From the NCBI RefSeq assembly GCF_034479615.1, contig NZ_CP140255.1, forward strand, positions 3,720,001 to 3,784,000: 64,000 bases of DNA, written 5' to 3'. The DNA comes from Vreelandella neptunia. GTDB taxonomy: Bacteria > Pseudomonadota > Gammaproteobacteria > Pseudomonadales > Halomonadaceae. Under the pieces are notes generated by a model. The model saw only the letters and a program-made list of their open reading frames with translations, was not told the DNA's origin and searched no databases. Within the stretch, counting starts at the first letter, position 1. The number at the start of each line of letters is the position of its first letter. Positions 4,028 through 39,105 of the stretch are shown piece by piece. The translations under genes were made by a program, and so were the position numbers.

Positions 4028-4045
4028 TCGGGCCTCGCAAGCCTA

Positions 4046-4477: not shown

Positions 4478-4492
4478 GATGGAGAGGTTCCC

Positions 4493-5974
4493 TTATTCCT
4501 TGTCGAGACGTCCGACTAACGACAGCTCAAAGTTGGCACCCATGTACTTAAAGTGCGGGCGCACCGACATAGATACCTGGTACCAACCCGGATCGCCTTC
4601 GACATCCGACACCTGAATAGAGGCGGCACGCAGCGGGCGGCGGCTGCGTACATCGGAGGGCGGGTTCTCTTGGTCGGCCACGTATTGGCGAATCCAGGTA
4701 TTCAGCTCACGTTCAAGGTCTTGACGCTCTTTCCACGACCCGATCTGCTCACGCTGGAGCACTTTAATGTAGTGAGCCAGACGGTTGATGATGAACATAT
4801 ACGGCAGTTGAGTACCCAGCTTATAGTTGGTCTCAGCGTCTTTGCCTTCGGGCGTGTTCGGAAATACCTTGGGCTTTTGTACGGAGTTTGCCGAGAAGAA
4901 AGCAGCGTTATCACTGCCCTTACGCATCGTTAACGAAATAAAGCCCTCTTCGGCCATCTCGAACTCGCGGCGATCCGTCACCAGCACCTCGGTGGGGATT
5001 TTAGCCTGCAGCTGGCCTAGCGCTTCGTAGGTATGGACAGGCAAGTTTTCAACCGCACCGCCGCTTTGGGGGCCAATAATGTTCGGGCACCAGCGGTATT
5101 TTGCAAAGCTGTCGGTCAAGCGCTCGGCCAGCAGGTACGCCGTATTACCCCAAAGATAATGGTCGTGATCTTCGCTGACGGTTTCACGATAGTTAAATGT
5201 CTTGATGGGGTTTTCGACCGGGTCGTAGGGCATCCGCAGCAAGAAACGAGGCGCCGTCAGACCTAAATAGCGCGCGTCTTCTGACTCGCGCAGACTACGC
5301 CAGCGCGCGTACTTGGGCCCTTCAAAGATGGCTTTAAAATCTTTGATATTGGGCAGCTCTTCAAAGCTATCGATGCCGAAGAAGGAAGGCGCCACCGCTG
5401 ACAGGAACGGCGCATGGGCCATCGCCCCTACAGCAGCCGTGTGCTGCAACAGTTTCATATCCGGGGTCGAGGGGGTGAAATCATAATGCCCGATAATCCC
5501 TGCTACCGGCTCACCGCCAAACTGACCATACCCACCTGCGTAAACGTGTTGGTAGAGCCCGCTTTGGGTAATTTCCGGGGCAAACTCAAAGTCATCCAGC
5601 AGTTCTTCTTTGGTGGCGTGAAGCACATCAAGTTTAATATTTTCGCGGAAATCGGTGCGATCAACCAACAGCTTCAAGCCACGCCATGCAGACTCCAGCT
5701 GCTGAAAGCTATTGTCGTGAAGAATCTCATCAACTTGACGACTAATTTTCCGGTCAAGCTCAACGATCATGCTATCTACAACGGCTTTATTAACCTGCGG
5801 GGCAGCGTTCTCGCCGCTTAACAGTTCGGAAATAAAAGCGGCAACGCCTTGCTTGGCAACGTCGTAGCCTTCATCCGCTGGCGCCATACGCGTCTGCGCC
5901 ATCACTTGATCAAGTAAAGAAACCTCTTCCTGGGTTTCCACCGTTTGGCTTTTCTTTTGCGCCGTATCACTCAT
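4493..5974 (-). CDS. tssC: T6SS contractile sheath large subunit TssC (VipB/EvpB)
   Basis: The 493-residue protein has the classic TssC features. It opens with an acidic N-terminus, then SRQVDEILHDNSFQQLESAW and WRGLKLLVDRTDFRENIKLD. A central part contains PFLSAVAPSFFGIDSFEELP, and the end has PGWYQVSMSVRPHFKYMGAN and a FELSLVGRLDKE C-terminus. TssC pairs with TssB to build the contractile sheath around the Hcp tube; ClpV later disassembles it (clpV is not in the window). A GAGG ribosome site lies seven bases before the ATG. tssB ends 53 nt upstream. Confidence 0.96.
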   Translation of the reverse strand: MSDTAQKKSQTVETQEEVSLLDQVMAQTRMAPADEGYDVAKQGVAAFISELLSGENAAPQVNKAVVDSMIVELDRKISRQVDEILHDNSFQQLESAWRGLKLLVDRTDFRENIKLDVLHATKEELLDDFEFAPEITQSGLYQHVYAGGYGQFGGEPVAGIIGHYDFTPSTPDMKLLQHTAAVGAMAHAPFLSAVAPSFFGIDSFEELPNIKDFKAIFEGPKYARWRSLRESEDARYLGLTAPRFLLRMPYDPVENPIKTFNYRETVSEDHDHYLWGNTAYLLAERLTDSFAKYRWCPNIIGPQSGGAVENLPVHTYEALGQLQAKIPTEVLVTDRREFEMAEEGFISLTMRKGSDNAAFFSANSVQKPKVFPNTPEGKDAETNYKLGTQLPYMFIINRLAHYIKVLQREQIGSWKERQDLERELNTWIRQYVADQENPPSDVRSRRPLRAASIQVSDVEGDPGWYQVSMSVRPHFKYMGANFELSLVGRLDKE

Positions 5975-6027
5975 AGAGATGCCTCGAATACAATCCGGTT
6001 ACTGGACTAGCACGAAAATAGCGATGC

Positions 6028-6537
6028 TTATTCGTTACGATTAGGGTCAGAATCAAGCAGCTCTAGCTCCGCCAACAGTTGCTGACGCGTTTCGTCACTT
6101 TCGAGTAGTTTCTGCAAACGATCACGAAAAGCAGGTACGTTGCCCAGTGGCCCCTTCAAGGCCACCAACGCCTCCCTTAATTCGACTAGCTTACGCAGCT
6201 CAGGCACCTGTCGAGCGATACTGTCGGGCGCAAAATCATGGAGAGATTTGAATTCCAAATTGACGGCCAAATCGCTTGCTTCACCCTCTTCTTGCAACCG
6301 ATTGGGAACCGCAGCCTGCAAACCAAGGTTCGCCTCGCGCATAACAGACTGGAAGTTGTTCTTATCAACAGAAACGGCTTCGCGCTCTTCAATGGAGGTC
6401 TCTTCCTCTCCACCTTTGAAGTCACCGACCACCAATAATTTTAACGGCAGTTCCGTCTCGGCCTGCTGATCACCTGTAGCGGGTACATATTTAATATTGA
6501 TGCGCTCTTTCGGCGCGACCGTTCCTTGCTTAGCCAT
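6028..6537 (-). CDS. tssB: T6SS contractile sheath small subunit TssB (VipA/ImpB)
   Basis: The 169-residue protein starts MAKQGTVAPKERINIKYVP and carries the ELPLKLLVVGDFKGG segment conserved in VipA/TssB, then PDSIARQVPELRKLVELREAL. The C-terminal end forms the helix that ClpV recognises after contraction in studied systems. It is the first gene of the minus-strand T6SS operon and is divergent from hcp across a 643-bp intergenic region. The ribosome site before the ATG is weak (GGGCGA). No clear sigma-54 box was found for this direction. Confidence 0.95.
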   Translation of the reverse strand: MAKQGTVAPKERINIKYVPATGDQQAETELPLKLLVVGDFKGGEEETSIEEREAVSVDKNNFQSVMREANLGLQAAVPNRLQEEGEASDLAVNLEFKSLHDFAPDSIARQVPELRKLVELREALVALKGPLGNVPAFRDRLQKLLESDETRQQLLAELELLDSDPNRNE

Positions 6538-6999
6538 GGTTTTCGCCCGTAAAAATTAGAACATTTTCAATTCAAAGAAGAATGCTTATTAATCGCGGGA
6601 AGTTACCGGATTTACGCCGAAAGTACCAAATAGCCATAAGCAGGCATTGCGACAATCTGAGGAAAGAAGATTTTCAAGATGGCGTTTTTTAACACCATTT
6701 TCGCGGACTTTAGAAGCAAAACAAAACAGACTAATTAAAACTAGCCTTTGAGCGCCGCATTTGTAAGAGATCTCTTACAAAAACTGTCACTAATTTCTTA
6801 CAAAACGACGAGCAAAATTCATACAAGAAAGGTGCTTAAATGGGCAGTACCGTCTTTTTTTTGCGGCAAAAATATTGCTCCGATGGCTCTATTTCTGCTT
6901 AAAATTCCAAGAAAGGCTTTAGCCATAAAGCAAGGTAACGGTAGATGCAACCCAGCGTTACTAAGCGCATATAGATGTAACAAGTAAGCAAGCAAGTTC

Positions 7000-7047
7000 T
7001 TGCCCTGCCAGGCAATATCTTGCCCAGCACAGGCAACTCTTTGCCCC
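7000..7047 (+). promoter_or_regulatory. Candidate upstream activator sites: phased TTGCCC/AGGCAA repeats
   Basis: TTGCCC occurs at 7000, 7020 and 7041, so the copies are 20-21 bp (two helical turns) apart. The first two are followed by AGGCAA at 7010 and 7031, giving two inverted repeats, TTGCC-N6-GGCAA and TTGCC-N7-GGCAA, plus a third half-site. They lie about 70-110 bp upstream of the -24 element of the hcp promoter, the usual distance for enhancer-binding proteins of the NtrC/VasH class. The bound protein is inferred, not seen. Confidence 0.65.
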
Positions 7048-7077
7048 ACAGAAAGAAGCGCCCCACCGTAAAAACCA

Positions 7078-7090
7078 TAAATTATTGATA
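7078..7090 (+). promoter_or_regulatory. IHF binding site between enhancer sites and sigma-54 box
   Basis: The 13 bases TAAATTATTGATA match the reverse form of the IHF consensus (YAA-N4-TTGATW) at every specified position. The site lies between the TTGCCC repeats and the -24/-12 box, where IHF normally bends DNA so that the enhancer-bound activator reaches sigma-54 polymerase. Confidence 0.65.
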
Positions 7091-7109
7091 TATAAAAAAT
7101 TTAATAAAA

Positions 7110-7126
7110 TTGGCCCTGAAGCTGCT
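7110..7126 (+). promoter_or_regulatory. Sigma-54 (-24/-12) promoter of hcp
   Basis: TTGGCCCTGAAGCTGCT has the invariant GG (7112-7113) and GC (7124-7125) exactly 10 bp apart and agrees with the TTGGCACG-N4-TTGCW consensus at most positions. The predicted start near 7137 leaves a leader of about 44 nt before the hcp ATG. Upstream repeats and an IHF box support the call. Hcp genes controlled by sigma-54 with VasH-like activators are known in Vibrio and other genera. Confidence 0.75.
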
Positions 7127-7180
7127 CTATTGTTTGAGTCCACGTGACATTTCTTTAATTTTTCAGTCAAGGAGCAGACC

Positions 7181-7699
7181 ATGCCAACACCATGTTATAT
7201 CAGCATCGAAGGCCAAACTCAGGGCAACATCACCGCCGGCGCTTTTACCCCTGACTCCGTAGGTAACATCTACGTTGAGGGTCATGAAGACCAGATGCTG
7301 GTGCAGGAATTCAAGCATGTCGTTACCGTACCCACTGACCCACAGTCTGGTCAGCCGTCCGGCCAACGTGCTCACAAGCCCTTTATCTTTACCGTTGCCT
7401 TGAACAAAGCAGTACCGCTGATGTACAACGCCCTAGCGTCTGGCGAAATGCTGCCTAATGTTGAGCTGAAATGGTACCGCACCTCTGTTGAAGGTAAGCA
7501 GGAGCATTTCTTCACCACCACGCTGACCGATGCCACTATCGTTGACATCAACCTGCGTATGCCTCACGCCCAGGACATCCAAAAATCTGAATTCACCCAG
7601 TTGATGGACGTGTCACTGGCTTACCGTAAGATTGATTGGGAACACACTGTTGCCGGCACCTCTGGTTCCGACGACTGGCGCGCCCCGATCGAAGGCTAA
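7181..7699 (+). CDS. hcp: T6SS tube protein Hcp
   Basis: A 172-residue Hcp1-type protein. It begins MPTPCYISIEGQTQGNITAG, contains GNIYVEGHEDQMLVQEFKH, and ends in the LAYRKIDWEHTVAGTSGSDDW segment typical of the family. Hexameric rings of Hcp stack into the tube that is propelled by the TssB/TssC sheath, and effectors can be carried in the ring lumen. A strong GGAG ribosome site precedes the ATG. The gene is monocistronic: a 13-bp-stem terminator follows at 7748-7777. Its own sigma-54 promoter suggests regulation partly separate from the structural operon. No VgrG or effector gene is adjacent. Confidence 0.96.
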   Translation: MPTPCYISIEGQTQGNITAGAFTPDSVGNIYVEGHEDQMLVQEFKHVVTVPTDPQSGQPSGQRAHKPFIFTVALNKAVPLMYNALASGEMLPNVELKWYRTSVEGKQEHFFTTTLTDATIVDINLRMPHAQDIQKSEFTQLMDVSLAYRKIDWEHTVAGTSGSDDWRAPIEG

Positions 7700-7747
7700 G
7701 CTGTTGTTCTTGGCCTAGCCCAGGTCTGAAAAAAGGCCTGAAACAAG

Positions 7748-7777
7748 CGAAGCCCCTTCCAACCGGAAGGGGCTTCG
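7748..7777. terminator. Terminator between convergent hcp and trpS
   Basis: A perfect 13-bp stem (CGAAGCCCCTTCC with its complement) and a 4-nt AACC loop, followed on the plus strand by TCGTTTCTGCTTC. It lies between the ends of hcp and trpS and could serve both directions. The T tract is interrupted, but the stem is very stable. Confidence 0.75.
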
Positions 7778-7835
7778 TCGTTTCTGCTTCTCGTGACAGG
7801 CATTTTGCTATGGGTATTGCAGCGAGACTTAGGGA

Positions 7836-8867
7836 TTAAACAAACCGCCCCAAGCCAACGGCCGCACGTAAACGATCCATCGTTACAGCGGCTTCTTCAC
7901 GGGCTCGCTCAGCGCCTTTCTGCAGTACCGCCTCAATATGGGCGGGGTCTTCCATCAGTGCGTTATAGCGTTCACGCGGCGCGCTCAAGTGGGCGTTCAA
8001 GTACTCAAACACTTGATCCTTAGCTGCACCCCAACCAATACCGTTTACGTACTGCTCACGCAGGCTAGCGGTCTCTTCAGACGTCGCAAAGGCGGAGTAG
8101 ATTTGAAACAGCGTGCAGGTGTCTGGATCTTTCGGCTCACCGGGTTCCAGCGAGTTGGTTTTAATCTTACGTACCAGCTTTTGCAGCTTCTTCTCAGTCA
8201 CAAACAACGGAATGGTATTGTCGTAGCTTTTGGACATCTTGCGCCCATCCAACCCATTCAGTAGCTGTATTTTGTCGTCTACCACAGCCTCAGGGAGGGT
8301 AAAGTGCTGACCTTTGTAGAGGTGGTTGAAACGCCCGGCGATATCGCGAGCCATCTCGATATGCTGAATCTGATCGCGCCCTACCGGCACCTTGTTGGCG
8401 TTAAACATTAAAATATCCGCGGCCATCAGCACAGGGTAACCAAAAAGGCCCATCGTAATGCCTTTATCAGGATCTTGGTTTTCCGCCTCTTCGTTCTCTG
8501 CAACCGCTGCTTTGTAGGCATGGGCGCGATTCATCAAGCCTTTGGCACAAACGCAGGAGAGCATCCAAGTCAGCTCTGGGATTTCTGAAATGTCCGACTG
8601 GCGGTAGAAAATCGCATTATCGGTATCCAGCCCCATTGCCAGCCAAGTAGCAGCAATTTCCAGCCGCGACGCCTGCACCCGCTTCGGGTCTGGACACTTA
8701 ATCAGCGCATGATAGTCGGCCATGAAATAGAACGACTGAACGGTTGGATCCTGGCTTGCCTCAATGGCGGGCTTGATCGCCCCAACGTAGTTACCTAAAT
8801 GTGGCGTACCGGTCGTAGTAATGCCGGTGAGAACCCGGGTTTTGGCGGTCTGGCTCATGGTTTTCAT
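7836..8867 (-). CDS. trpS: Tryptophan--tRNA ligase
   Basis: Class I aminoacyl-tRNA synthetase, 343 residues from the chosen start. The nucleotide-binding signature appears as TPHLGN at residues 21-26 (the HIGH equivalent), and the second signature is a canonical KMSKS in [10 protein letters not shown] around residue 210. The sequence opens [20 protein letters not shown], as in the longer Pseudomonas-type TrpS. The frame extends to 8942, but those 25 extra residues are not like the family. An AAGAG ribosome site lies just before 8867; a second ATG at 8858 is also possible. It catalyses ATP-dependent charging of tRNA-Trp. It sits downstream of the pilin operon where pilY1 would usually be. Confidence 0.95.
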
Positions 8868-8938
8868 GACTCTTAGTTTACAGGCTCTTAAACAAGTACC
8901 GGTATGATAACGCGCGCTTGGTCGTGTGGCGAATGACA

Positions 8939-11359
8939 TCATTGCCAGTCAATTAGCGACCATGTAAAGAGGCCATCGCTAGGAATTTCAGACAAATTGC
9001 AGCCCCCCCAACGCTCCTGCTCCTCTTCATCTAACAAGTTAAAAGCCGTACGCAATGCTTGCTCATCGAAGTTGAAGTCATTGCTTCCTCCACCACGGAA
9101 TTCAATATTAGCGGGGGAGAACTCCATGCTACCCGCATCATAAGGAGCCACTAACAACGCACCATTCAAATCACGGCCACCACCGCCTTTTTGCGTGTAA
9201 TTGCCTAATACAATTAGTAGCCCATCAAAAGCTGGATTTCCGCCTCCATCGTAGTTGCCGTTCACGACCAAAATACCTGCGCCGGAAAGATTATTGGTAT
9301 CAACATCACCATTTATGAAAGTAATTTTTTCATTCCCGACACTGCCGAAAACCGCATTATTTTTACCCACGTCATTGAGAGTTATATCGGCTCTTCTTCT
9401 TAATAAATCGATAAAATCAGCAAATTTTTCAGCACTTTCGCCACGATCAAATACACCTTTTGGAATGCCCTCTCGGACATTTCCATCAGCAGTGTTAGCA
9501 TTTGCAAATTTCTCTGCATCGCCAGTAGCAACAGTAATATCAGGCACTTCGCCTGCACCAATAAACTTTGCTCGCGAAGACGGTAAGCTCAAACGGCTCA
9601 CAGGACTGACGACCGTTAAAGGAGAAATATCTGCAAAACTGCACCACTGTTCATTGCCGGCTTCACCAGCGATGGCTACATCTGCGTAAGCACGGTCATA
9701 ATGTATCGAAGCGCCTCCACTCACATTTAGCGTGTTTGAAAAAACGCGCCCCATTAGCCGTGCCGATCCTGCAATACGCACTTCTCCAAAGGGCGCTAAT
9801 AGTTCACCATACATATCACCCGCGGATGACATATCAATAGCACTTTCACTACCTTCGTGGAGCGATACAAATGAGAAAGCTGAAACTAGACGCCCCCCCA
9901 CATCAACGACTGGCTCAAAATCGCTCATATCAAAAACATTAGACCCTTTTAAAGAAAACGTGCCTTTCGATATAACTTGGAGAGACGCCCCCTCACGTAA
10001 AGTAATCGCATCAGAACTTCCCCATAAAGCTATGTCTACGCCTGACTCTGCAACAATAACGGTTGGTCTTTCGACAACCATTCCATTACCACCTATATTT
10101 AGCTGAGCAACATGAAAAGCTTCAAATCCATTAATATTCTTTGACTCACCGAGTACAGCCGTACTTGTTGGCCCATCATAGTTGAAAGCGTTAACATCGG
10201 TCGGATTCGTATTAAAATGATATGCCTCATAAAGCTGCTCCACACCATAGTCTGGGCAGGGGTCATTTTCTTTGACAACGGTTAACTCATCACTTAAGAA
10301 ATCAGCAAAATTAACCTCAGGGTCACGGCTACTTACTTGCCCTGAAATCCTATTATCTATTTCTGAATAAACCTCAGGGGATGTTGCATCTCCGCCAATG
10401 GCATAGGATGTGCCGGCCCTAGTACTACCATCGGCTTGCAGAGCGCTCACCTCTCCCCAATTGCCTAATACTTGAATTCGACTGTTTGCAGAAACATCAC
10501 CATCAACTCGGGTTCCCACATGAAAGACAATATTATTTTCCGAATACAGGCTGCCTGTTATTAACGCATTGTTACCTCGAAGTGATATATCGCCTTTCAC
10601 ATACACATCACCATCGATGGGCATTGTGTTAGTTACTTCCATTCGACCTGCAGAATAAATATCACCGGTTACACCCGGTACAGCCCCCATATTAAATAGT
10701 AAATTGCTGTTCTCATGGACAGCTATGAGTGAAGCCTTCTCGCCACTATTATTTCCTACACCGTAGGCGCCTGCTTGAGAATCAAAACCATCAATTACCA
10801 CACCGCTCCCCCCTGTCAGGTTGGCGCCATGGCAGGTAATCACACCATCTCTGAACAGTCCGGCACCGTTGGCCCCTTCAACATCATAACGATAGACAAT
10901 AGAAGATTCACCGGAGGCGCTATTGCGCAAACCACGATCTAAAGAAGTAATTGTTATAGTTTGGGCCTGCTCGTTTACCTCAAAAATTATATCCAAATCA
11001 CCGAGAAGTTTATCGACTTCAATTTTCCGCTCTTCTTCTTCCATATCTTTATAATTATCAGGAAGCAAACCATTAACAAACTCTCTAAGCGTACCATTTT
11101 GTATCAGCTCATTTACACTTGGCGGCTCCCCACTATCCAAAAGGCTTTTAAGAGCTCTTTCACGGGCATCCTTATTTCCATCACTTGCTAATGCGGCTAG
11201 TACATTATCCGATGTCATATACGCTTGTGTTGAGGCTCGGTAGTTTCCCGCCAAACGCTCATCAATCAACGCGCTCTGCATACTTGACATACCTAGCAGG
11301 AGTGCACCTGAAAGAAACACCATCACTATTACTAATGCAGCGCCTTGTTGTTCTTTCAT
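8939..11359 (-). CDS. pilX: Very large PilX-type minor pilin (PilX N-terminal domain)
   Basis: The 806-residue protein starts [20 protein letters not shown] and has the PilX_N domain: a single N-terminal hydrophobic helix without the usual Phe/Glu prepilin pair, then [19 protein letters not shown]. The rest is a long beta-rich region with many GD/GN-type turns ([21 protein letters not shown], for example) suggesting a right-handed or bactofilin-like stack. The end ([27 protein letters not shown]) resembles a DUF7305-type domain. Typical PilX is only ~170-200 residues. It follows pilW by 63 nt, with a GGAG ribosome site. Minor pilins PilV, PilW and PilX prime type IV pilus assembly, and PilX normally presents PilY1. 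No pilY1 follows, so this protein may act as the tip itself (inference). The gene looks AT-richer than its neighbours. Confidence 0.8.
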
Positions 11360-27440: not shown

Positions 27441-30400
27441 CTATAGCGGGTTCTTCGAGAATTTAGTCCACAAAGCGTCTAATTCCGCCCTATCAATACC
27501 TTGCCTAACTTTAAATACGCCAGCAGTATCAACTTGCTCGACCACCTCTAAAAATTCAAGCACTACATGGTATGGTGGTCGATTCCAAAAGTCATGGATA
27601 AAAATCCGAGCCATTTCTTGGTTATGCATATGCTCTGTAATATGGATAATTGATGCAATCGTGCATGCGACTCTGAAGCGACCGTCCACAAGAATCAAAT
27701 CAAATGGCTGTTTATGATAATGAATCGCCTGACTGTATTTAGAAAAATGATGCTGGAATTCATCTGAGACTGGCAACCCCCACTCCTTAGTTGGCCCGAT
27801 ATCGACAGATTCAACTTGACACTTATCACCCAGTTCATCTTTAAGTGCCCTTACCCATTTAGCATCACTTTCCACACCCTCTACTCTCAGGCCTTCTTTT
27901 ACCGCCCAAACTGTAGATCCGCCTGAGCCAAATTCAAAATAGCTCTTTGCTTTCTTTAAGTACTTTTTAAACAGCTTGCGTTCTGCATTTGACATGAAAG
28001 GAGCATCAGGCAACGGAAATTCCAATGCTTCATTTTTTTCCGACACCTTAGTTTTTTTGTTCGACAATGACTCCGAAGCTGTTTCGGGTTTAACGTCAGT
28101 TAATCTTTGTAGAACCAAATACTCTTCTGCCTTTTCTTTATCAATTTCAACCAATAGCTTATATGTTAGATCCTTTATGCCATACACCGTGTGCAATAAA
28201 AAAGCTAGTTTGGAGCGTTGATTTTCATTTAGCTCAGCCATCCGCTCGTGAGTGGGGAGGAAAACCGCATCGGCACTTTGAAGTTCGGTAGCTTGACGAA
28301 TTTCCGCTGGTACGCTGTTCGGCAGATGGCTTAAGTGCTGTTGGTTGTTGAAACGGTATAGACGGAAACCATGGCGTGACATCCAGTGCTGAATTTCAGC
28401 TAAGTTTGGCTGTCGTTTATGCGTCGGTTGAAAGGCAATACGCACTTGGATGACTAGCGTATCTTTAAGGGCTTTTTCACCATTCTCAAGGATTACGGTC
28501 GAATCACTTAAATCGTCCAGAATCAACCAATCCAGACTATCCAGGCCTTCGATGCTATCTAACACGATAGTATTGATTGGAAGCTTAGCAAGCACGCTTG
28601 CACCAGCAGGGTTAGCTCCGTACTGTTGTTCCACTGGCATCGGTTCCAGGGTACTGCTCAATGCTGGATCTAAGCACGAATAAAGCGTCGCCGAACTACC
28701 ATCTCCTAAAACAGCATGGGTAAAAACCTGCACATCTTTGCTGCCCTCAAACCGCTCAGTATTTATTACTTGGCTTGCGGGGTCGAAGGCAACTATACCA
28801 AATGAATTTAACTTCCTAAGTGTATCAATACCTTTTTCAACAACTAGTTTTGAACCATTATCCAGCGCTATAATCTTACTGGGTAGTGACCAGTGAAAAC
28901 CAGCCGTTTCGACTTCCAGGCTCTCTGCATAAACAACATCTACAGGCGCTTCTTCATCTTCAAATTTCGCCAGCCCTGTTTTATCGAACGTTAAAGCGGC
29001 TGGCTGCTTTCCTTCACAGTGCCGTTGCCAAATAGCGCGCATTGCATCAGTAAAATGTTTTGCAAAGCGGGAAGCATCGCATACCGGTGACTCTAATAAG
29101 ACTTGACGAAGGTGCTGCCTAATAGTGGCAAGGCTATCTAAATCAGACGCTAGCTCTAAAACTCTTTCTCGATACTCCTCCCATGAGTTAACCACAAGTT
29201 CTGGCATACCTGCATTAATCAAATGAGTAGCACTGTGGCGTCCTGCAAAGGTTGGCCCTGGGAGGGAAACCACCGGCACTCCCATTAGAAATGACTCACA
29301 TGTAGTTAAGCCACCAGAATAAGGCCAGGGGTCTAAGGAAATATCGATTTTATTATAGGCATCTAAAAGTTCGGAGTGTGGTGATGGCCCTTCTATTATC
29401 AGCCGATCATCCTCAATACCGTACAGAGCCATGGTGTCTTTAATTTTTTGGCAACGCTCCTCACTCTTATACTGCATGCTTTTGAGCATTAGCTTAGAAT
29501 TGGGTAGTGCTAGCATTATCTTAGCCCATTGGTCTAGCAATGCACTGTTTAATTTTGAAGCATTATTAAAACAACCTAGCGTTATATAGCCATTTCTAAG
29601 TGCAGGTAATACGCCCACATTTGGCTCATATCCATTGGGTGGCACATAGCAAATATAGTCATCAGGTAGACGTATTAGTTTTTCCACATAGTCTTCATCA
29701 ACACCTCCAGGTGTCTCGATGGAGTCGCTGATTAAATAATCAATGGCTGATAACCCTGTGGTATTAATCAAACCACCTACCCACTTCACCTGCACTGGAG
29801 CAGGCCGCATGCTTACCGCCAGCACCCTATTGCCAGCATTATGGCCAGCTAAATCAATTAGGATATCAACCTCATCATTCACAACCTGCTCAGCAACCTG
29901 CTGATCTTTTAACGGCTGTACACTCATCCACTGCTCAGCTACCGATTTAAGCCTTTCGGTAATACCATCGGAAGCATTGTTAGTGCTGTAAAAATAAAAA
30001 GCTATCTGGCTTTTTGAAACATGCTCTAAAGCTGATGTGATCATTCTCCCCACAGGATGTCCTCGAAAACCGTCTGAGATCAAACCAACCCTCAGAAGTT
30101 TTTGGGGGTCATTTAGCTTACTATGAGGCAGGACTGTAACGTCTGGTAAAAATTTACTTTCCCATTGCTTACATAAAGCTGTAATCTCTTCTCCTGTTTT
30201 ATCAGGATGATAGTGATAAGTAGTTATAATATTAGAAAAAGGGCCCGGTGCCTGCGGATTTACACGATGGGCTTGCCCGTAACTTTCGAGTCCTTTATCA
30301 AGATCACCAATGGCATTATAAACATTACCTAAATTATTCCATGAAAGGTAGTTTTTGGGGGCTAATCTCGCGGCTTTTTCAAGCGCATCCCTAGCACGAT

Positions 30401-30890
30401 TATATTCAAATGTCTGCAACAAAGTATTGCCCAAGGTATTGAGCATATCTACATCGTCAGGCATCAACTCACAGGCTGTTTCAGCGTGCTTTAGAGCCTC
30501 ATTAAAACGTGCCTGGGTGTAATAAATATAACCAATATAATGCTGTGCTTTGGCATAATTTGGATTTAACTTGATGGCTTCATGTAAAAACACCAGCGCC
30601 TGCTCGGGATTACCCGCTTGATGTGTTATCCGGCCTTTTAGCGCTAACGTTTCAGCATCATCAGAAACCAAAGCACTAGCTCGTTCCAGTGCTATTAATG
30701 CCTCTTCAAACTGTCCGACCGCAGAAAGCTCCGCACCCAACTGTTTCCACGCAGCTAAATTGGTTGGTTTCTGTACCGTACGCTCTTTGGCTTTCTTTAA
30801 TGCTTGCGTTGTTCCCCTCGCATCTAAGGTGCGTTGATGAGCATTGCTTGCTGAGCGATAAGGCTTTTTATTTGACATGATAGAGAACAT
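27441..30890 (-). CDS. TPR/O-GlcNAc-transferase-like protein with two C-terminal methyltransferase-like regions; probable flagellin glycosyltransferase
   Basis: A 1149-residue cytoplasmic protein. Residues ~45-240 hold about six TPR units. Residues ~264-625 are a SPINDLY/OGT-type GT41 domain with RVGLISDGFRGHPVGRM, DLAGHNAGNR (346-355), and DPWPYSGGLTTCESFLMGVP from 520. Residues ~690-880 look like a FkbM-type methyltransferase fold with QPNLAEIQHWMSRHGFRLYRF. Residues ~980-1110 contain FEFGSGGST and FDLILVDGRFRVACT, a SAM-methyltransferase-like Rossmann pattern. It lies 172 bp downstream of flagellin; this position and the GT41 domain suggest it glycosylates flagellin. Starts at 30890 or 30878 are both possible. 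The gene looks AT-richer than its surroundings. The GT41 call is firm; the methyltransferase-like parts may be binding or catalytic modules. Confidence 0.8.
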   Translation of the reverse strand: MFSIMSNKKPYRSASNAHQRTLDARGTTQALKKAKERTVQKPTNLAAWKQLGAELSAVGQFEEALIALERASALVSDDAETLALKGRITHQAGNPEQALVFLHEAIKLNPNYAKAQHYIGYIYYTQARFNEALKHAETACELMPDDVDMLNTLGNTLLQTFEYNRARDALEKAARLAPKNYLSWNNLGNVYNAIGDLDKGLESYGQAHRVNPQAPGPFSNIITTYHYHPDKTGEEITALCKQWESKFLPDVTVLPHSKLNDPQKLLRVGLISDGFRGHPVGRMITSALEHVSKSQIAFYFYSTNNASDGITERLKSVAEQWMSVQPLKDQQVAEQVVNDEVDILIDLAGHNAGNRVLAVSMRPAPVQVKWVGGLINTTGLSAIDYLISDSIETPGGVDEDYVEKLIRLPDDYICYVPPNGYEPNVGVLPALRNGYITLGCFNNASKLNSALLDQWAKIMLALPNSKLMLKSMQYKSEERCQKIKDTMALYGIEDDRLIIEGPSPHSELLDAYNKIDISLDPWPYSGGLTTCESFLMGVPVVSLPGPTFAGRHSATHLINAGMPELVVNSWEEYRERVLELASDLDSLATIRQHLRQVLLESPVCDASRFAKHFTDAMRAIWQRHCEGKQPAALTFDKTGLAKFEDEEAPVDVVYAESLEVETAGFHWSLPSKIIALDNGSKLVVEKGIDTLRKLNSFGIVAFDPASQVINTERFEGSKDVQVFTHAVLGDGSSATLYSCLDPALSSTLEPMPVEQQYGANPAGASVLAKLPINTIVLDSIEGLDSLDWLILDDLSDSTVILENGEKALKDTLVIQVRIAFQPTHKRQPNLAEIQHWMSRHGFRLYRFNNQQHLSHLPNSVPAEIRQATELQSADAVFLPTHERMAELNENQRSKLAFLLHTVYGIKDLTYKLLVEIDKEKAEEYLVLQRLTDVKPETASESLSNKKTKVSEKNEALEFPLPDAPFMSNAERKLFKKYLKKAKSYFEFGSGGSTVWAVKEGLRVEGVESDAKWVRALKDELGDKCQVESVDIGPTKEWGLPVSDEFQHHFSKYSQAIHYHKQPFDLILVDGRFRVACTIASIIHITEHMHNQEMARIFIHDFWNRPPYHVVLEFLEVVEQVDTAGVFKVRQGIDRAELDALWTKFSKNPL

Positions 30891-31002
30891 CCTGAAGGCG
30901 GTTAAGCTATGCGAACAGCGTACATGATTAACTCGCCTCGCAAAGGTAGGAAAAGCGCTGAATATAGTTGCTAACTGATTTCGAGACAGTCTTTAAAACA
31001 AG

Positions 31003-31026
31003 ACAGGCCCCCAGAAGGGAGCCTGT
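31003..31026 (-). terminator. fliC terminator
   Basis: ACAGGC/GCCTGT stem with an inner TCCC/GGGG pairing, 37 nt after the flagellin stop; on the minus strand it is followed by CTTGTTTTAAAG. It separates flagellin from the glycosyltransferase gene. Confidence 0.7.
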
Positions 31027-31062
31027 AGGTAATCCGAAAGTTCGGATGAGTATAGCGGAGGC

Positions 31063-32256
31063 TTAGCCCAGCAGAGACAGTACGTTCTGCGGCGTTTGGT
31101 TAGCCTGGGCCAGTACAGAGGTACCCGCCTGTTGCAGGATCTGAGCACGAGTCATGTTGGCCACTTCACTGGCGTAGTCAGCATCTTCGATACGTGAACG
31201 AGCAGCGGAGAGGTTAGTTTCGTTAGTTTGCAAGTTGGTTATCGCAGACTCGAAACGGTTTTGAATCGCACCCAAGCCAGAGCGAAGCTCGTCGACTTGC
31301 TTCAAAGCCTTATCAAGCTGCTCCATCGGGTTAGCTGTCGCTGAGTTCAGAAGGTCTTTTGCACCCAAGCTTGCACCGTCAACAGTATAAGCAGCAGTGG
31401 TGTTACCTGTAGTAACGGTGGCCTCAGAAGGATCAAGCGCTACTTGGAAAGTAACTGCGGTACCTGAAATAGCTTCGATACCCTGCAGACCCAAAGCTTT
31501 AACTTCTGATTCACTTGCAGCAGTAATACTGACATCCACATACCAGTTGCCGTTATCGTCTACTTGGGCTGTGCCCGCAGTAGCAACGGAACCAGTGGCG
31601 ATACCCAAATTCGTGGCTAGTTCATTCTTGAAACCAGTTGCGGAAACAGTATTATTGGCTACACCCGTACCTTCACCGTATGCTGTTGTATAGTCAGTTG
31701 CAGTTGCAGCACCAAGATTCGCACCGGGGCCATTAACGTTAAAGCTAGCCAGACTCAGTGTGTCAGCAGTAATTTTTTCCAGTGCAACGTCGATTGATTC
31801 ACCGTCGTTGGCACCTACCTGGATAGACAGGCTGCGATCTTGGGCCAGAACTTTAACGCCGTTGAAGTCAGTCTGTTCAGAGATGCGGTTGATCTCGGTC
31901 AAACGCTGATCAATTTCGTCCTGGATGGAAGCACGGTCGTCAGCAGAGTTGGTGTCGTTCTGAGACTGAACGGCCAGTTCACGAATACGCTGCAGGTTGT
32001 CGTTTACTTGGTTCAGGGCGCCTTCAGCGGTTTGCGCAACGGAGATACCGTCGTTGGCGTTACGCTGAGCCTGAGACAGACCAGTGATCTGTGAAGTCAT
32101 ACGGTTGGCGATGGCTTGACCAGCGGCGTCATCTTTAGCGCTGTTGATGCGCAGACCAGAGGACAAACGCTCCATGGCGGTAGACAGTGCGTTCTGTGAT
32201 TTGCCAAGGTTGTTTTGGCCGATCATTGCTGTGATGTTGGTATTGATCACTGACAT
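31063..32256 (-). CDS. fliC: Flagellin
   Basis: A 397-residue flagellin. The N-terminal D0/D1 region is canonical (MSVINTNITAMIGQNNLGKS, then LSSGLRINSAKDDAAGQAIA, and the TLR5-type QRIRELAVQS); the C-terminal D0/D1 ends QNVLSLLG. The central variable part, about residues 170-310, is short, acidic and Thr/Ser/Ala-rich. Serine and threonine residues there are plausible glycosylation sites for the neighbouring GT41 enzyme. AAGGAG lies nine bases before the ATG, and a sigma-28 promoter is 73-99 bp upstream. Exported by the flagellar type III system, it forms the filament. Only one flagellin gene is in view. Confidence 0.97.
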   Translation of the reverse strand: MSVINTNITAMIGQNNLGKSQNALSTAMERLSSGLRINSAKDDAAGQAIANRMTSQITGLSQAQRNANDGISVAQTAEGALNQVNDNLQRIRELAVQSQNDTNSADDRASIQDEIDQRLTEINRISEQTDFNGVKVLAQDRSLSIQVGANDGESIDVALEKITADTLSLASFNVNGPGANLGAATATDYTTAYGEGTGVANNTVSATGFKNELATNLGIATGSVATAGTAQVDDNGNWYVDVSITAASESEVKALGLQGIEAISGTAVTFQVALDPSEATVTTGNTTAAYTVDGASLGAKDLLNSATANPMEQLDKALKQVDELRSGLGAIQNRFESAITNLQTNETNLSAARSRIEDADYASEVANMTRAQILQQAGTSVLAQANQTPQNVLSLLG

Positions 32257-32328
32257 GGGATGATACTCCTTGCTTTGGACACTGGCCCTGAGGCCTGCTT
32301 TCGGCCACTGTTTGTGCCGTTATATTAA

Positions 32329-32355
32329 TTAACGGCAGCGCGTGGGGTTTCTTTA
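32329..32355 (-). promoter_or_regulatory. Sigma-28 (FliA) promoter of fliC
   Basis: On the minus strand TAAAGAAA is followed by exactly 11 bp and then GCCGTTAA, close to the consensus TAAAGTTT-N11-GCCGATAA. The -10 overlaps a 7-bp inverted repeat, GCCGTTA-N7-TAACGGC (32316-32336). The expected leader is about 65 nt. Confidence 0.85.
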
Positions 32356-32485
32356 GGGGAAGTGGTAAAAAAAGATGTAAACGTTGGTAACTGAATAGTG
32401 AAGAGTTTCATGCTTGGGCGGGGTGGCCGTGAGAGTATGAGATCGCTTCACTGGATTTGCGATGACACCGCGCTTTGGTCGCGAG

Positions 32486-32675: not shown

Positions 32676-34067
32676 CTACTTTTTGCGGCCTAACTGAGCG
32701 TCAAGTGCATCAAACTGCTGGGTAAGGTAAGAGCTGGTTTGGTTCATTTGCGCGATCATGCCATCCAACTGACCAAACTGTTTGCGATAGCGGTCGATGG
32801 TGCTCTCAATGGTCTTTTCCATACGTGCGTAGCGCTCATCTAAACTTTTTACGCGATTCTCCGCTCCCGTAATGGCCCCTTTGATAGTCCCGTTATCGCT
32901 CAACAGGTTAGTTAACGTCGTGGTTAGCTGCCCAGCCATGCCACTCGCTTCATCTTTGCCTGCAAAAAAATCGCTGAGCGCGTCAGGACTGTTGGCCGCT
33001 AGATCACTTAACTTGTCTTCATCAAGTTTTAGCGTACCGTCACGCTGCAAGGTAATACCTAGCTGGTTAAGGGTTGAAAGCTCACTGCCTGCAACACTGC
33101 CTATCATCACACTGCGCAACCGAGACTCTATGGTGCGCACCGTGCTGTCTCCTAGCAGCTTGCCGGCGGTCTGGGTTTTACTATCGTATTTTGTCAGGTT
33201 ATTGATTGTGCCTTCTAAGCCGTTATAGGCTTTGACGAATGCACCTACCGCCTCGCGCACCCCCAGGGTGTTGCGTTCAACACTTACCGTACTGGTAGCC
33301 GTCCCGCCGTCTTCCAACGCTAAACTTGCAATGTTGAGTGTGACGCCTTGAATCGCATCTTCAATTTGGTTACTGGCACTGGTGATATCAATACCATTGA
33401 CCTTCAACACAGCGTCTTTACCCATCTGCTGAGTAGCGGCGTCTTCACCAAAGGGGCCAGCTACAGCCAAACCACCAGCATCCACAAAACTAAAACTGTT
33501 AATGGAGGCCTCAGCGCCGCTTTCCTTTGAACTTAACGCCAATCGATAGCCCGTACCGTCATTGATGATAGAGGCACTGACTCCCGACTCTTTGTCCGCA
33601 TTAATTGCATCACGAATATCGCTTAGACTGCTATCGGCTGTTAGGGCAATATCGACACTATCGCCATTGCCGAAGCTCAACTGAAATGCAGTTGCACCTT
33701 GTAAGTCGAGCGCAGCATCTTGATCGGTAACGCGGGTAGACGCAAGCGTGCCTGCGGTGGCCAACTGGCTAACTTGAACGCGGTAACTGCCGGGCAATGC
33801 ATCGGCTGTGGCTGTTGCTTTTACGCCCTCTCCCTGCACATTGGCAGAAAGGCTCTGATAGAGTTCAGGGTCGTTGATTTTTCCTACGGCGTCTTTAAAA
33901 GCGTTCAGCGATGTTTGCAGCTGGCCATAGGCCGAAACCTTGGCTTGCTGTTGTGTTTTCTGCTGCGTAATGGGCGCAAGCTTGCCGCGCTCTGCTTTCT
34001 GCAGTTGATCCAATAGGCCAGTCAGGTCCAGACCCGAGCCAACGCCAAGGGAGGTTATCGTCGCCAT
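32676..34067 (-). CDS. fliD: Flagellar filament cap protein FliD (copy 1)
   Basis: A 463-residue FliD. The N-terminus MATITSLGVGSGLDLTGLLD and the FliD_N block are followed by the central domain with TGYRLALSSKESG and KVNGIDITSASNQIEDAI. The FliD_C part includes REAVGAFVKAYNGLEGTINN, and the coiled C-terminus ends LTQQFDALDAQLGRKK. FliD pentamers or hexamers cap the filament and fold incoming flagellin. A GAGGA ribosome site lies nine bases before the ATG, and a near-perfect sigma-28 promoter lies 79-105 bp upstream. It is paralogous to the gene at 34276-35637; the last ~31 residues are almost identical. Confidence 0.94.
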   Translation of the reverse strand: MATITSLGVGSGLDLTGLLDQLQKAERGKLAPITQQKTQQQAKVSAYGQLQTSLNAFKDAVGKINDPELYQSLSANVQGEGVKATATADALPGSYRVQVSQLATAGTLASTRVTDQDAALDLQGATAFQLSFGNGDSVDIALTADSSLSDIRDAINADKESGVSASIINDGTGYRLALSSKESGAEASINSFSFVDAGGLAVAGPFGEDAATQQMGKDAVLKVNGIDITSASNQIEDAIQGVTLNIASLALEDGGTATSTVSVERNTLGVREAVGAFVKAYNGLEGTINNLTKYDSKTQTAGKLLGDSTVRTIESRLRSVMIGSVAGSELSTLNQLGITLQRDGTLKLDEDKLSDLAANSPDALSDFFAGKDEASGMAGQLTTTLTNLLSDNGTIKGAITGAENRVKSLDERYARMEKTIESTIDRYRKQFGQLDGMIAQMNQTSSYLTQQFDALDAQLGRKK

Positions 34068-34145
34068 ATTGACTGTTCCTCAGTAAAAAAGGCTAAACCT
34101 GAAACATTCAGCGCATGGGCACGCTGGCAATTGTGGTATGTAATT

Positions 34146-34172
34146 TTATCGGCTGATTAGCGGGCAACTTTA
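34146..34172 (-). promoter_or_regulatory. Sigma-28 promoter of fliD copy 1
   Basis: Minus strand: TAAAGTTG, 11 bp, GCCGATAA. Fifteen of the sixteen specified bases match the FliA consensus. It drives this fliD separately from the second copy, which has its own terminator at 34219-34241. Confidence 0.9.
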
Positions 34173-34218
34173 GCGCTTTTTCTTTCGCTAAGTTAATTAT
34201 TCTTCTTTTGCTAATAAA

Positions 34219-34241
34219 AACGCCTGCTTAGCGCAGGCGTT
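34219..34241 (-). terminator. Terminator after the second fliD
   Basis: AACGCCTGC and GCAGGCGTT form a 9-bp stem with a 5-nt loop, 35 nt downstream of the second fliD stop; on the minus strand TTTTATTAG follows. It ends transcription before the promoter of the first fliD. Confidence 0.85.
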
Positions 34242-34275
34242 CATTGGGGACGAGGAGGGAAAGCAACAGAGCGGA

Positions 34276-35637
34276 TTAGCCACGGCCTAGTTGGGCGTCT
34301 AATGCATCGAACTGTTGGGTAAGATAGCTGCTGGTCTGGTTCATTTGCGCAATCATGCCATCCAGTTGACCAAACTGGCTGCGGTAACGAGACATCGTCT
34401 GCTCAATTGATTGCTCCATACGGGTGTATTGCTCTACAAGCGACTTGTTGAGATTTTCCGCCCCGCTAATCGCTCCTTCCACGCGGCCATTAGAGCCAAG
34501 CAATTGTTCGACAGCTGTATTAATTTGCCCTGCCATACCCGCCTCATCCGAATCGCCTGCGAAGAAGGTTGCAAGCGCACCTTGGTTATTAGCAATGGCA
34601 TCATCAAGCTTGTCTTGATCGACCTCAAGTTTGCTATACCCCAGCCCGCTATCGTACTTGTGCGAAATACCGATATCGCTAAGAATGGAGAGCTCACCCT
34701 CCACAGCCCCACCCAGCACATCACGCAAGCGAGACTCGACGGTACGGACGGTACCGTCTCCCAACAGCTCGCCTGCCTCGCCGGTTTCAAAATTGAAGCT
34801 GGTTAAATCGCCAATTTTATCTTTGAGACCGTTATAGGCCTCTACAAAATTGGTAACAGCCTCGCGAACAGCGCGGGTGTCTTGCTCAACGGAGACCGTG
34901 CTATCACCCTCTTCTTGAAGGTTTAGCGTCACGCCCTGGATAGCGCCTTCAACTTGATTAGTGGAGCTGGTGATATCAATACCGTTAACGGTAAGCGCTG
35001 AATCAGTACCGCTTTGCAGCGTATTAGCGGTATCTGAAGTGAACGGGGCAGCACCGTCAAAACTGAAATCGGCAATAGAGGCATCTGCCCCGGTTTCACT
35101 AGAGCTAAGTGCGAGGCGGAAATTGGTACCATCATTAATAATAGTCGCGTTCACGCCAGCGTCTTCAGTGGCGTTAATCGTATCGCGAATACCTTCCAGA
35201 GTGCTGCCTGACGCTATATCGATCTCTTGGGTGGAACCATCAGCGAAGTTCAGGGTTAATTTTTGGTCAGCAGCGGTGATGCCCTCATCTGCGGCGGCTA
35301 CCCCTTCTGAAGCAAGCGTGCCGCGAGTGGCTAGAGTGTCGACGGTAACATTATAGCTACCTGGCTGTGCTTCCGCATCAGCAGCGGCGGTGATGGCTGA
35401 ACCACCCACGTTAGTGGAAAGGCTTTCGTAAAGAGTGCTGTCATTAAGCGCATCAGCGGCAGTTTGAAACTGAGAGAGCGCGCTCTTCAACTGACCATAA
35501 GCGGAAATTTTGGTCTGCTGTGTTTCCTGCCGCTCAAGAATCGGCACAAGCTTCTGTTCCTCGGCCTCTTTCAACTGATCCAATAAACCGTTGAGATCCA
35601 AGCCTGAGCCAATACCAAGTGATGAAATGGAAGCCAT
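34276..35637 (-). CDS. Flagellar filament cap protein FliD (copy 2)
   Basis: A 453-residue paralogue of the neighbouring fliD. The N-terminus (MASISSLGIGSGLDLNGLLD) and the C-terminus (LTQQFDALDAQLGRG) nearly match it, while the middle is more diverged and more acidic (DAEAQPGSYNVTVDTLATRG, EGELSILSDIGISHKYDSG). The FliD_N and FliD_C domains are complete and I see no frameshift, so the gene looks functional. A GAGGA ribosome site and a recognisable, weaker sigma-28 promoter precede it. Two caps might serve different filaments or growth conditions, but only one flagellin gene is in the window. Confidence 0.92.
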   Translation of the reverse strand: MASISSLGIGSGLDLNGLLDQLKEAEEQKLVPILERQETQQTKISAYGQLKSALSQFQTAADALNDSTLYESLSTNVGGSAITAAADAEAQPGSYNVTVDTLATRGTLASEGVAAADEGITAADQKLTLNFADGSTQEIDIASGSTLEGIRDTINATEDAGVNATIINDGTNFRLALSSSETGADASIADFSFDGAAPFTSDTANTLQSGTDSALTVNGIDITSSTNQVEGAIQGVTLNLQEEGDSTVSVEQDTRAVREAVTNFVEAYNGLKDKIGDLTSFNFETGEAGELLGDGTVRTVESRLRDVLGGAVEGELSILSDIGISHKYDSGLGYSKLEVDQDKLDDAIANNQGALATFFAGDSDEAGMAGQINTAVEQLLGSNGRVEGAISGAENLNKSLVEQYTRMEQSIEQTMSRYRSQFGQLDGMIAQMNQTSSYLTQQFDALDAQLGRG

Positions 35638-35766: not shown

Positions 35767-37095
35767 CTAATCGTGGCTTTTCCGCCCCACCCCTATGTAA
35801 CGCAGCCCCGCTTCTTCAACAGCACTTGGCGTGTACAAGTTACGCCCATCAATGACGACTTTTTCAGCCAGCTGGTCGGCTAGCCAATCAAAATCGACAC
35901 TGCGAAACTCTTTCCACTCGGTGCAGATAACCAAAGCATCAGCTCCTTTCACTGCCTGAATCCGATCTCCTGCCAGCATTAGGTCATCCCGCTCGCCATA
36001 AATGCGGCGGCACTCTGTCATGGCTTCAGGGTCGAACGCCTGCACCTTAGCGCCCGCTTGCCAGAGTGCTTCCATTAACGTGCGGCTAGGGGCTTCGCGC
36101 ATATCATCCGTGTTGGGTTTAAAGGCCAAGCCCCAAACAGCAATAGTCTTGCCACTTAGACTGCCTAGGTTGTCTTGCAGTTTTGTGAACAGGGTTTGCT
36201 TTTGACGCAAATTAACCGATTCGACGGCGCTGAGCAGTTCCGGCGTATAGCCTAGTTGACGCGCTGCCCGCTCTAATGCCTGGACATCTTTGGGGAAGCA
36301 AGAGCCACCATAACCGCAGCCAGGGTAGATAAAGTGGTAGCCAATACGTGGGTCGCTGCCAATCCCTCGGCGTACGTCTTCGACATCCACCTCGAGCCGT
36401 TCGGCAAGATTGGCGATCTCGTTCATAAAGCTGATTTTGGTGGCGAGCATGGCATTGGCAGCGTATTTGGTTAGCTCGGCAGCCCGCACGCTCATAAACA
36501 TCAACTTTTCGTGGTTGCGGTTGTAGGGGGCGTAGCACTCTTGCATATGCGCTTTCACCCGCTCGCTTTCTGTACCGACGATAATCCGCGCGCCACGAGT
36601 AAAGTCATCTATCGCTGCCCCCTCCTTCATAAACTCAGGGTTCGAACACACATCGAACGCGAGCGATACACCGCGTTGTTCGAGCACATCGCTGATAGCA
36701 GCGTGGACTTTTTCTGCAGTGCCCACCGGCACGGTAGACTTATCAATCACCAGCTTATAGCTATCCATATGCTGGCCAATCGTGCGCGCCACTTCTAGTA
36801 CATAGCGTAGGTCGGCACTGCCATCTTCGTCGGGCGGCGTTCCCACGGCAATAAACAGCAGTTCGCCATCGGCTACCGCCTGGGCAGCGTCAGCAGTAAA
36901 GCGTAAACGGCCAGCCGCCACGTTGTGGGCAACGATAGTGCTTAGCCCTGGCTCAAATATCGGCACCTCTCCGCCCTTAAGCTGATCAATTCGCTCAGCA
37001 TTAACATCCATACAGGTGACTTGATGACCAACATCGGCTAAGCAGGCGCCTGCGACAAGGCCGACATAACCGGTTCCGAATACACTGATATGCAT
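35767..37095 (-). CDS. ugd: UDP-glucose 6-dehydrogenase
   Basis: A 442-residue NAD-dependent enzyme that oxidises UDP-glucose to UDP-glucuronate in two steps. The N-terminal Rossmann motif is [18 protein letters not shown], and the substrate region has [14 protein letters not shown]. The catalytic cysteine lies in [16 protein letters not shown], and the C-terminal NAD domain has [16 protein letters not shown]. It supplies uronic acid for exopolysaccharide or LPS, or possibly sugar donors for glycosylation. It starts 173 nt from the divergent unknown gene at 37268 and lies upstream of the second fliD on the same strand. Confidence 0.95.
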
Positions 37096-38247: not shown

Positions 38248-38812
38248 TTATCCGAGACGCTGGCGTTTCTCGTCGAATGCTCGCTGAATCATTTTCTGCT
38301 GCTTTGCATCGATTTCTAATTCTCGGCAAAGGAATGACCATTCGGATAGAGCATCAAGGGTTTGCTCAATATAGAGATCCGGGGTTAAGTACCTGAAAGG
38401 GGCGCAAACCTGTTTGAGCTTTTTACGTGTAGCCAGGCCTGCCCCACTGAAAGATGTTGTATGCTCATCTGCATAGCCCCGGACAGGGGAATAAGTCAGG
38501 TCGTAAGCAGGAGCTAGTGTCCATCGACCTTGGTCATACAAAAAAGCGAAGTTCTTAGCGTGGTCATCGTGATAGCAGCATTCCCCAGCCATCAGGCAGC
38601 GAGTCAGCAAATGCTCCCGGTAGACCAGCAAAAAGAAGTGGATCCAGCGCCTTCTGTGGTTGGGTAGTAAAACCCATGTTCAGAGGCGACAAATTGAAGC
38701 CTTCCGCCACCCAATGAGGGTGGTAGGCAAAGTAGATGCCCTGTCGGCTAGCGACCAGCTCCCCCACAGGATTACCCGCTAACAGCACCTCTACGCTGTT
38801 GATACGCTTCAT
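38248..38812 (-). pseudogene. hipA: hipA relic with internal deletion and frameshift
   Basis: The first frame (from the ATG at 38812) encodes a HipA N-terminal domain, MKRINSVEVLLAGNPVGELV to GAFADSLPDGWGMLLSR, and stops at 38564. A second frame continues with the HipA C-terminal part, CCYHDDHAKNFAFLYDQGRW, APAYDLTYSP and the helical end. Intact HipA-like kinases have ~400-440 residues, so about 200 central residues, including most of the kinase lobe, are gone. The gene begins in a 4-nt overlap with the HipB-like gene. A Ser/Thr kinase toxin activity is therefore unlikely. A rearranged sequence or assembly error cannot be excluded. Confidence 0.8.
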
Positions 38813-39105
38813 TTTCGCCCCCGGGTACGCCCCGTCTGCTTGATCTCTTCAAGTGAGACGGGGTGTTCCTGCTCGAATAGCTCGGCAATTTGGCGTGTGG
38901 CGCCCAGCGCTGTGGCAATGAGCACTAGACCATCGAGAGTTATTTGCCCACTGGATTCGAATCGTTTAATGGTGGACTCGGAAACACCTGCCATCTGCGC
39001 CAAGGTTTTACGGGAAAGGTTCTGCGCCAGTCGCGCTTCTCGTGCATTGGCACCGACCTGCTGGGACAGTTCGCCAGGAGCAAGTAGAGAGTGAGTCAGG
39101 GCCAT
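38809..39105 (-). CDS. hipB: HipB-like antitoxin, XRE-family DNA-binding protein
   Basis: A 98-residue protein with a Cro/CI-type helix-turn-helix (LSRKTLAQMAGVSESTIKRF, about residues 30-50) and a basic C-terminal tail (TGRTRGRK). It overlaps the following hipA relic by 4 nt (ATGA), the standard arrangement of hipBA operons, where HipB neutralises HipA and represses the operon. Its frame is intact although the toxin is broken. It may still act as a repressor, or be a relic losing selection. Confidence 0.85.
   Translation of the reverse strand: MALTHSLLAPGELSQQVGANAREARLAQNLSRKTLAQMAGVSESTIKRFESSGQITLDGLVLIATALGATRQIAELFEQEHPVSLEEIKQTGRTRGRK

Follow-up and report, generated by a model that had tools for sequence, protein, structure and literature searches.

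A putative flagellin-modifying TPR-GT41 protein of Vreelandella neptunia with an eroded FkbM-type hub and an exchangeable tail

Flagellin glycosylation islands of the Enterobacteriaceae were reported to encode SPINDLY-domain GT41 proteins beside fliC and, in the portion of that report considered here, all but eight of these proteins also hold AdoMet_MTases domains (194 strains), with flagellin methylation islands described as well (De Maayer and Cowan, 2016; PMC4875605). The fusion of a glycosyltransferase with a methyltransferase beside flagellin is therefore known at the annotation level. Here we analyze a gene of Vreelandella neptunia located at 27441–30890 (minus strand) of a 64,000-nucleotide stretch of contig NZ_CP140255.1 (positions 3,720,001 to 3,784,000; the window), whose 1149-residue product joins TPR repeats, a GT41 domain, a central domain of FkbM methyltransferase fold (the hub) and a C-terminal methyltransferase domain. 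As in the enterobacterial islands, the SPINDLY-type GT41 lies just downstream of the flagellin gene, and the island-bearing genera named in that portion of the report include Siccibacter, Brenneria and Mangrovibacter, in which we find the same architecture as in the window. The same portion holds no description of an FkbM-derived hub, of GT4 or sulfotransferase fronts or of exchangeable tails (the strings "halomonas" and "sulf" are absent from its main text), and in the open-licence literature we found no description of the hub, of differing fronts or of tail exchange. The part not found described is the combinatorial build of the family, not the TPR-GT41-methyltransferase fusion itself.

The open reading frame (ORF) starts with ATG and is free of internal stops, and the flagellin gene (31063–32256, minus strand; PF00669 E 1.8e-47, PF00700 E 1.1e-31), the presumed substrate, ends 172 bp upstream on the same strand, so the single intact chain beside flagellin proposed in a preliminary description of this DNA stands. 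The 4.95-Mb genome holds one full-length copy, the sole further match being 25% identity in the TPR part. The TPR repeats span residues about 31–250 (30141–30800, minus strand), as judged from Pfam TPR families and PDB matches to TPR and OGT proteins, and are followed by the SPINDLY/OGT-type domain at residues 259–639 (28974–30116, minus strand), both regions being in agreement with the preliminary description. The latter matches PF13844 (Glyco_transf_41) with 140 bits against a cut-off of 25 (E 9.9e-41), and its closest solved proteins are SPINDLY (7y4i, E 2.7e-97) and a bacterial TPR-GT41 protein (5djs, E 1.1e-89). Both share TPR and GT41 with the window protein, but the matched chains stop after GT41 and leave its hub and methyltransferase unmatched. 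Aligned with SPINDLY and OGT, the window GT41 retains the catalytic-type residues: H278, K446 and T529-T530-C531-E532 are unchanged in 59/59 aligned homologues, and H278 and K446 are presumably the equivalents of OGT H498 and K842. The profile match and these residues identify the domain as a GT41 glycosyltransferase, with sugar transfer as its predicted activity.

The C-terminal domain (residues 961–1148; 27447–28010, minus strand) corresponds to a Rossmann region previously read from its FEFGSGGST and FDLILVDGRF motifs, a reading that is borne out. Residues 961–1149 match 3cvo, a "methyltransferase-like protein of unknown function" (phmmer E 1.4e-17), and an AlphaFold model built from 37 sequences superimposes on 3cvo with Z 24.9 and a root-mean-square deviation (rmsd) of 2.0 Å over 183 aligned residues at 32% identity. 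Further fold neighbors are mostly COMT-type O-methyltransferases (Z 12–14), with TrmR and RsmD-like RNA methyltransferases among them. The domain carries the motifs YFEFGSGGST (984–993), LVDGRFR (at 1067) and HDFWNRP (at 1099); E-x-G-x-G-G-S together with the S-D of VESD (the acidic residue after strand 2) is invariant in 16 rows, and the E, G, G and S of the glycine motif are invariant in 37 rows. The solved relative, SPO2022, is a stand-alone 202-residue chain of unknown function, whereas the window domain is fused to TPR-GT41-hub. The evidence for a class I S-adenosylmethionine (SAM)-dependent methyltransferase fold with an intact glycine motif is convincing, and methyl transfer is predicted from it.

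The hub (residues 660–926; 28113–28913, minus strand) was modeled from 29 sequences and also adopts a class I methyltransferase fold. Residues 645–937 match no Pfam family at E below 0.5, and the hub profile gave chance matches only against PDB sequences (E 0.4–0.9), so a fold search was needed. Among the chains that Foldseek placed high, the only ones in the structural comparison (VIA rows), TrmK-type chains (Z 11.7) and FkbM 2py6 (Z 11.6, rmsd 2.8 Å, 151 aligned residues) score best. As the TrmK-type chains score like FkbM, the family call rests also on kinship with FkbM copies found by the hub profile in the tails of relatives, one of which, in locus L056, matches PF05050 with E 5e-22; a hub-only protein (L117) reaches 13.7 bits with PF05050, under the cut-off of 22.7. 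Elsewhere in the C-terminal half, the last domain reaches PF13578 at E 0.15, no Pfam domain passes its cut-off, and neither the hub nor the last domain finds a family in NCBIfam. The assignments in this half thus rest on the PDB sequence match, on predicted structures (predicted local distance difference test score, pLDDT, 88.8 for the hub and 94.6 for the last domain) and on kin sequences; the methyltransferase character suggested earlier for this half appears in the models, although not in the Pfam profiles.

The hub shares its fold with FkbM (2py6, PF05050) but differs in that both FkbM motifs are eroded. All seven FkbM tail copies that span the motif region (L056, L059, L062, L070, L090, L092 and L111) read D[IV]GANP and K-I-D-I-Q-G, the copy in L077 being partial and outside this set. 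Six stand-alone relatives keep K-[ILM]-D-x-[QE]-G without exception; their first motif reads D[IV]GANP in two, DVGSG in one and D[IV]GA with different letters after it in three. Among 82 aligned main hubs, in contrast, neither D[IV]G nor D.GAN occurs once, and the lysine of K[IL]DxQG (position 790) is found in none. Because the two motifs are eroded in 82/82 homologues, the hub is probably a former methyltransferase kept for its shape and serving as a scaffold. We therefore set aside two active methyltransferases as our principal interpretation, and the window chain would probably carry one active methyltransferase, not two. Of what the preliminary description had proposed, the FkbM-like region at 690–880 holds as to fold but is wider, and the two methyltransferase modules hold as class I folds but probably not as two enzymes.

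Neither different fronts nor exchangeable tails figured in that description, and both emerge from a survey of 201 genomes of the bacterial family, own genome included. The hub is present in 89/201 genomes and the C-terminal domain in 23/201. One locus per genome was taken from 90 other genomes, comprising 88 with a hub, one GT41-methyltransferase protein without hub (L137) and one stand-alone C-terminal domain (L139); the 90 proteins surveyed are the window protein, the 88 hub proteins and L137, and a hub match on a second contig of genome G135 lies outside the survey. Of the 87 proteins that hold a single long hub, 57 have a GT41 front, 19 a GT4-type transferase front and 11 neither of these; the last group includes two hub-only proteins and five with TPR and Sulfotransfer_3 by Pfam. 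After the hub there may be no tail, a GT2, GT1/GT4-like, GT56 or glycerophosphotransferase-like domain, several classes of methyltransferase, FkbM copies, three classes of sulfotransferase or the window-type C-terminal domain. This amounts to about 32 layouts in 90 proteins (ORFs of 302 to 1790 residues), a rough count, as the tails were classified with in-house profiles that started from Pfam hits, and some tail stretches are unassigned. A same-strand flagellin gene ends no more than 1.5 kb upstream in 84 of the 90 (median 165 bp); the remaining six comprise two broken genes with the 5′ part next to flagellin (L056 and L111), three with flagellin 1.6–3.1 kb upstream and one near a contig end. 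In the five sulfotransferase-fronted proteins (L079, L086, L102, L104 and L119), TPR and Sulfotransfer_3 replace the glycosyltransferase before the hub, and direct sulfation of flagellin is conceivable there.

Comparison with G198 (locus L056), whose hub is the nearest among the 201 genomes, locates the point of exchange. The two loci share 87.6% DNA identity along a stretch of 4299 bp that runs from flagellin to residue 929, and the shared stretch (28104–32394) has its 3′ edge at 28104 on the minus strand, where the hub ends, as seen by pairwise DNA comparison. Past residue 929 the tails are unrelated (methyltransferase in the window, FkbM plus sulfotransferase in L056), and similarity resumes further downstream at 90% over 2200 bp. 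Tail labels differ in 52 pairs whose hubs are at least 80% identical, and in these the similarity stops at a median of +0.3 residues from the hub end (10–90% range −47 to +8.5 residues; the pairs are not independent). With tail-less members excluded, 25/29 different-tail pairs break within 50 residues of the hub end (median −12). Of 11 control pairs with the same tail label, eight are similar to the end and three break at the hub though both tails are labelled GT2. In L056 itself (5154–9708), the gene is split within GT41 into two ORFs of 437 and 1072 residues, which may reflect a sequencing error, a phase-variable frameshift or decay.

On a tree of the hubs, the front label changes 3 times against 27.5 in shuffles, and the tail label 52 times against a mean of 62.4 in 200 shuffles (lowest 57); tails are thus not random, yet far more labile than fronts, although the two counts cannot be compared directly because the tail label has many more states. 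Scored with two states, present or absent, the C-terminal domain still needs 14 changes (shuffles 17.4; as low in 3/200). The tree is a quick one, with 25/84 inner branches starred and several long branches; L111, L133 and L137, which have no single long hub, lie outside it, and the tail count uses 86/87 rows, L122 being excluded as its tail is in a separate ORF. Together, these comparisons show the sequence after the hub behaving as an exchangeable cassette, which by its domain assignments would be a second glycosyltransferase, a methyltransferase, a sulfotransferase or nothing.

The layout extends beyond the family. A collection of genomes scanned for the C-terminal domain yielded 126 confirmed relatives; 79 of their loci were covered, of which 31 are close. 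In all 31 a GT41 ORF has a TPR match and flagellin adjoins it, on the same strand in 30 and divergently in L169. GT41, hub and C-terminal domain share one ORF in 28/31, the exceptions being L174, which lacks the hub, and L158 and L175, with the C-terminal domain in a separate ORF. The same domain order beside flagellin is thus recurrent and the architecture is not unique; the general idea is also present in the consulted portion of PMC4875605. Hosts of the close loci include Vreelandella, Billgrantia, Chromohalobacter, Salinicola, Parahaliea, Microbulbifer, Brenneria, Siccibacter, Mangrovibacter, Zobellella, Alcaligenes and metagenome-assembled genomes of Alcanivorax and Idiomarina; several of the 31 are in genomes that also belong to the 201-genome survey. 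The other 48 of the 79 loci are distant, mostly small stand-alone proteins. Searches with the hub found at least 4/369 genomes at class level (two own or same genus, two weak) and at least 25/398 at phylum level, lower bounds as few candidates per genome were scored. The matches outside the family that were read (L227, L228 and L232–L236) are FkbM-like proteins of 295–460 residues. L235 (913–3669) comes from a different lineage of the phylum; there an FkbM-type gene of 437 residues with a VVDVGSG motif directly precedes a GT41-matching ORF on the same strand, a gene pair that reads as a two-gene counterpart of the window fusion.

By gene position, with a glycosyltransferase gene beside flagellin, the window locus would class as a flagellin glycosylation island. 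We consider it reasonably probable that the protein is a cytosolic flagellin decorator acting as a single chain, its target, sugar and activities being proposed from homology and locus. In this model, the TPR superhelix would hold unexported flagellin, and the GT41 domain, whose class is set by homology and conserved residues, would put the first sugar on Ser/Thr, an acceptor suggested by the locus. The FkbM-derived hub, having lost most FkbM/SAM motifs, would serve as a scaffold and as a joint between front and tail, and the C-terminal domain, by its fold and glycine motif, could O-methylate the bound sugar with SAM. Exchange of the tail at the 3′ edge of the hub, which the comparisons above show, would then alter the flagellar glycan and leave the front as it is. 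Glycosylation followed by methylation, as first suggested in the preliminary description, remains the most economical reading of the GT41 domain, the methyltransferase folds and the flagellin locus, with the amendment that the hub is probably not a second active methyltransferase.

Several observations weigh against this model. The fold and glycine motif of the last domain are no proof of methylation, its nearest solved relative, 3cvo, itself having no assigned function. GT41 is joined to a methyltransferase without a hub in L137 and in the named locus L174, so the hub is not indispensable. The number of tail changes is below that of every shuffle, tail types thus being partly inherited. Most directly, the hub is well conserved in places: N678, D703 and D787 are invariant in 82/82 rows, D677 and D792 are kept in 80, and the first motif glycine (D.G) survives in 43/82 hubs, window included. 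N678, D703, D677 and this glycine are not obviously needed by a purely structural domain, and together with D787, D792 and the full class I fold they speak for an alternative in which both C-terminal domains would be active, the hub with altered chemistry (methyl or another group) and the last domain as a second methyltransferase, to give a doubly modified sugar. We regard this as unlikely, given that D[IV]G and GAN occur in none of the 82 hubs and the K[IL]DxQG motif is replaced, and that motif-intact FkbM copies were re-added in some tails, as if the hub activity were no longer supplied.

The last domain might instead methylate flagellin residues directly, as FliB does for lysine, independently of any sugar; flagellin methylation islands do exist, as noted in the consulted portion of PMC4875605. 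The domain is tethered beside flagellin, which would suit such a role, but its fold neighbors after 3cvo are mostly COMT-like O-methyltransferases. Its Foldseek matches also include MeT1 and MycE, which we take to be sugar O-methyltransferases, and direct methylation accordingly seems to us quite improbable. GT41 enzymes modify many proteins and the tie to flagellin here comes from the locus, so the acceptor could be a surface polysaccharide or another protein and the flagellar location coincidental. We give this very little credence, as the flagellin linkage of the surveyed proteins recurs beside all 31 close named loci of several orders and outlasts changes of both front and tail.

Beyond the glycosylation and methylation proposed for the window protein, the family as a whole could tentatively be seen as a colinear assembly line. 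Glycans would then be built in the sequence in which the modules follow one another on the chain: a first glycosyltransferase, the scaffold, a second glycosyltransferase, a methyl- or sulfotransferase and a terminal methyltransferase. Whole tails would be swapped by recombination at a constant position, where the retired FkbM domain has its 3′ edge, and closely related bacteria would thereby differ in their flagellar glycans, perhaps as a result of selection by phages or predators. In line with this order, the extra glycosyltransferase precedes the methyl- or sulfotransferase domains in 15/15 proteins with both (GT2 being placed from Pfam hits in L145 and L142 and by analogy with L145 in L136, L143 and L144), and the window-type methyltransferase is the last domain in 21/21. 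The 15/15 figure partly reflects shared ancestry, 4/15 being near relatives, and the group with an N-terminal sulfotransferase breaks the sugar-first rule. If this scheme is correct, glycan structure would be predictable from, and rewritable by, module order on one gene, and to our knowledge there are few protein glycosylation systems in which the glycan can be read in this way. It would also make available a natural, testable system for the engineering of flagellar coats, account for the rapid change in flagellar surface chemistry between close relatives and show that a domain once enzymatic has taken on a new role as a recombination joint.

The gene has a GC content of 43.5%, against 52.0% in the remainder of the 20-kb piece, which confirms the AT-richness that had been taken as a possible sign of transfer. 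However, GC is lower than in the surroundings in 68/90 family loci (mean −3.8 points), the deficit of the window gene being among the larger ones (13% of loci are lower). We did not take low GC as particular evidence that this gene was recently transferred, because the trend is family-wide and because the closest relative holds the front of the gene in synteny with about 88% identity.

Upstream of flagellin, and all on the minus strand, lie two genes for FliD-type cap proteins identified by domain search (32676–34067 and 34276–35637) and a UDP-glucose dehydrogenase-like gene (35767–37095; PF03721 E 1.3e-62). The tandem FliD-type genes (32676–35637) are 56% identical to each other, and the dehydrogenase-like gene, adjoining the flagellar genes, is a possible source of UDP-glucuronate. 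A terminator-like hairpin at 31003–31026 lies between flagellin and the 1149-residue gene; the region holds 11 such hairpins against 5.6 expected, and this one was not used in the analysis. Further away, small ORFs at 38248–39105 (minus strand) presumably resemble HipB followed by pieces of HipA without its middle, and the cluster at 1281–7699 has ORFs that we take to resemble type VI secretion genes.

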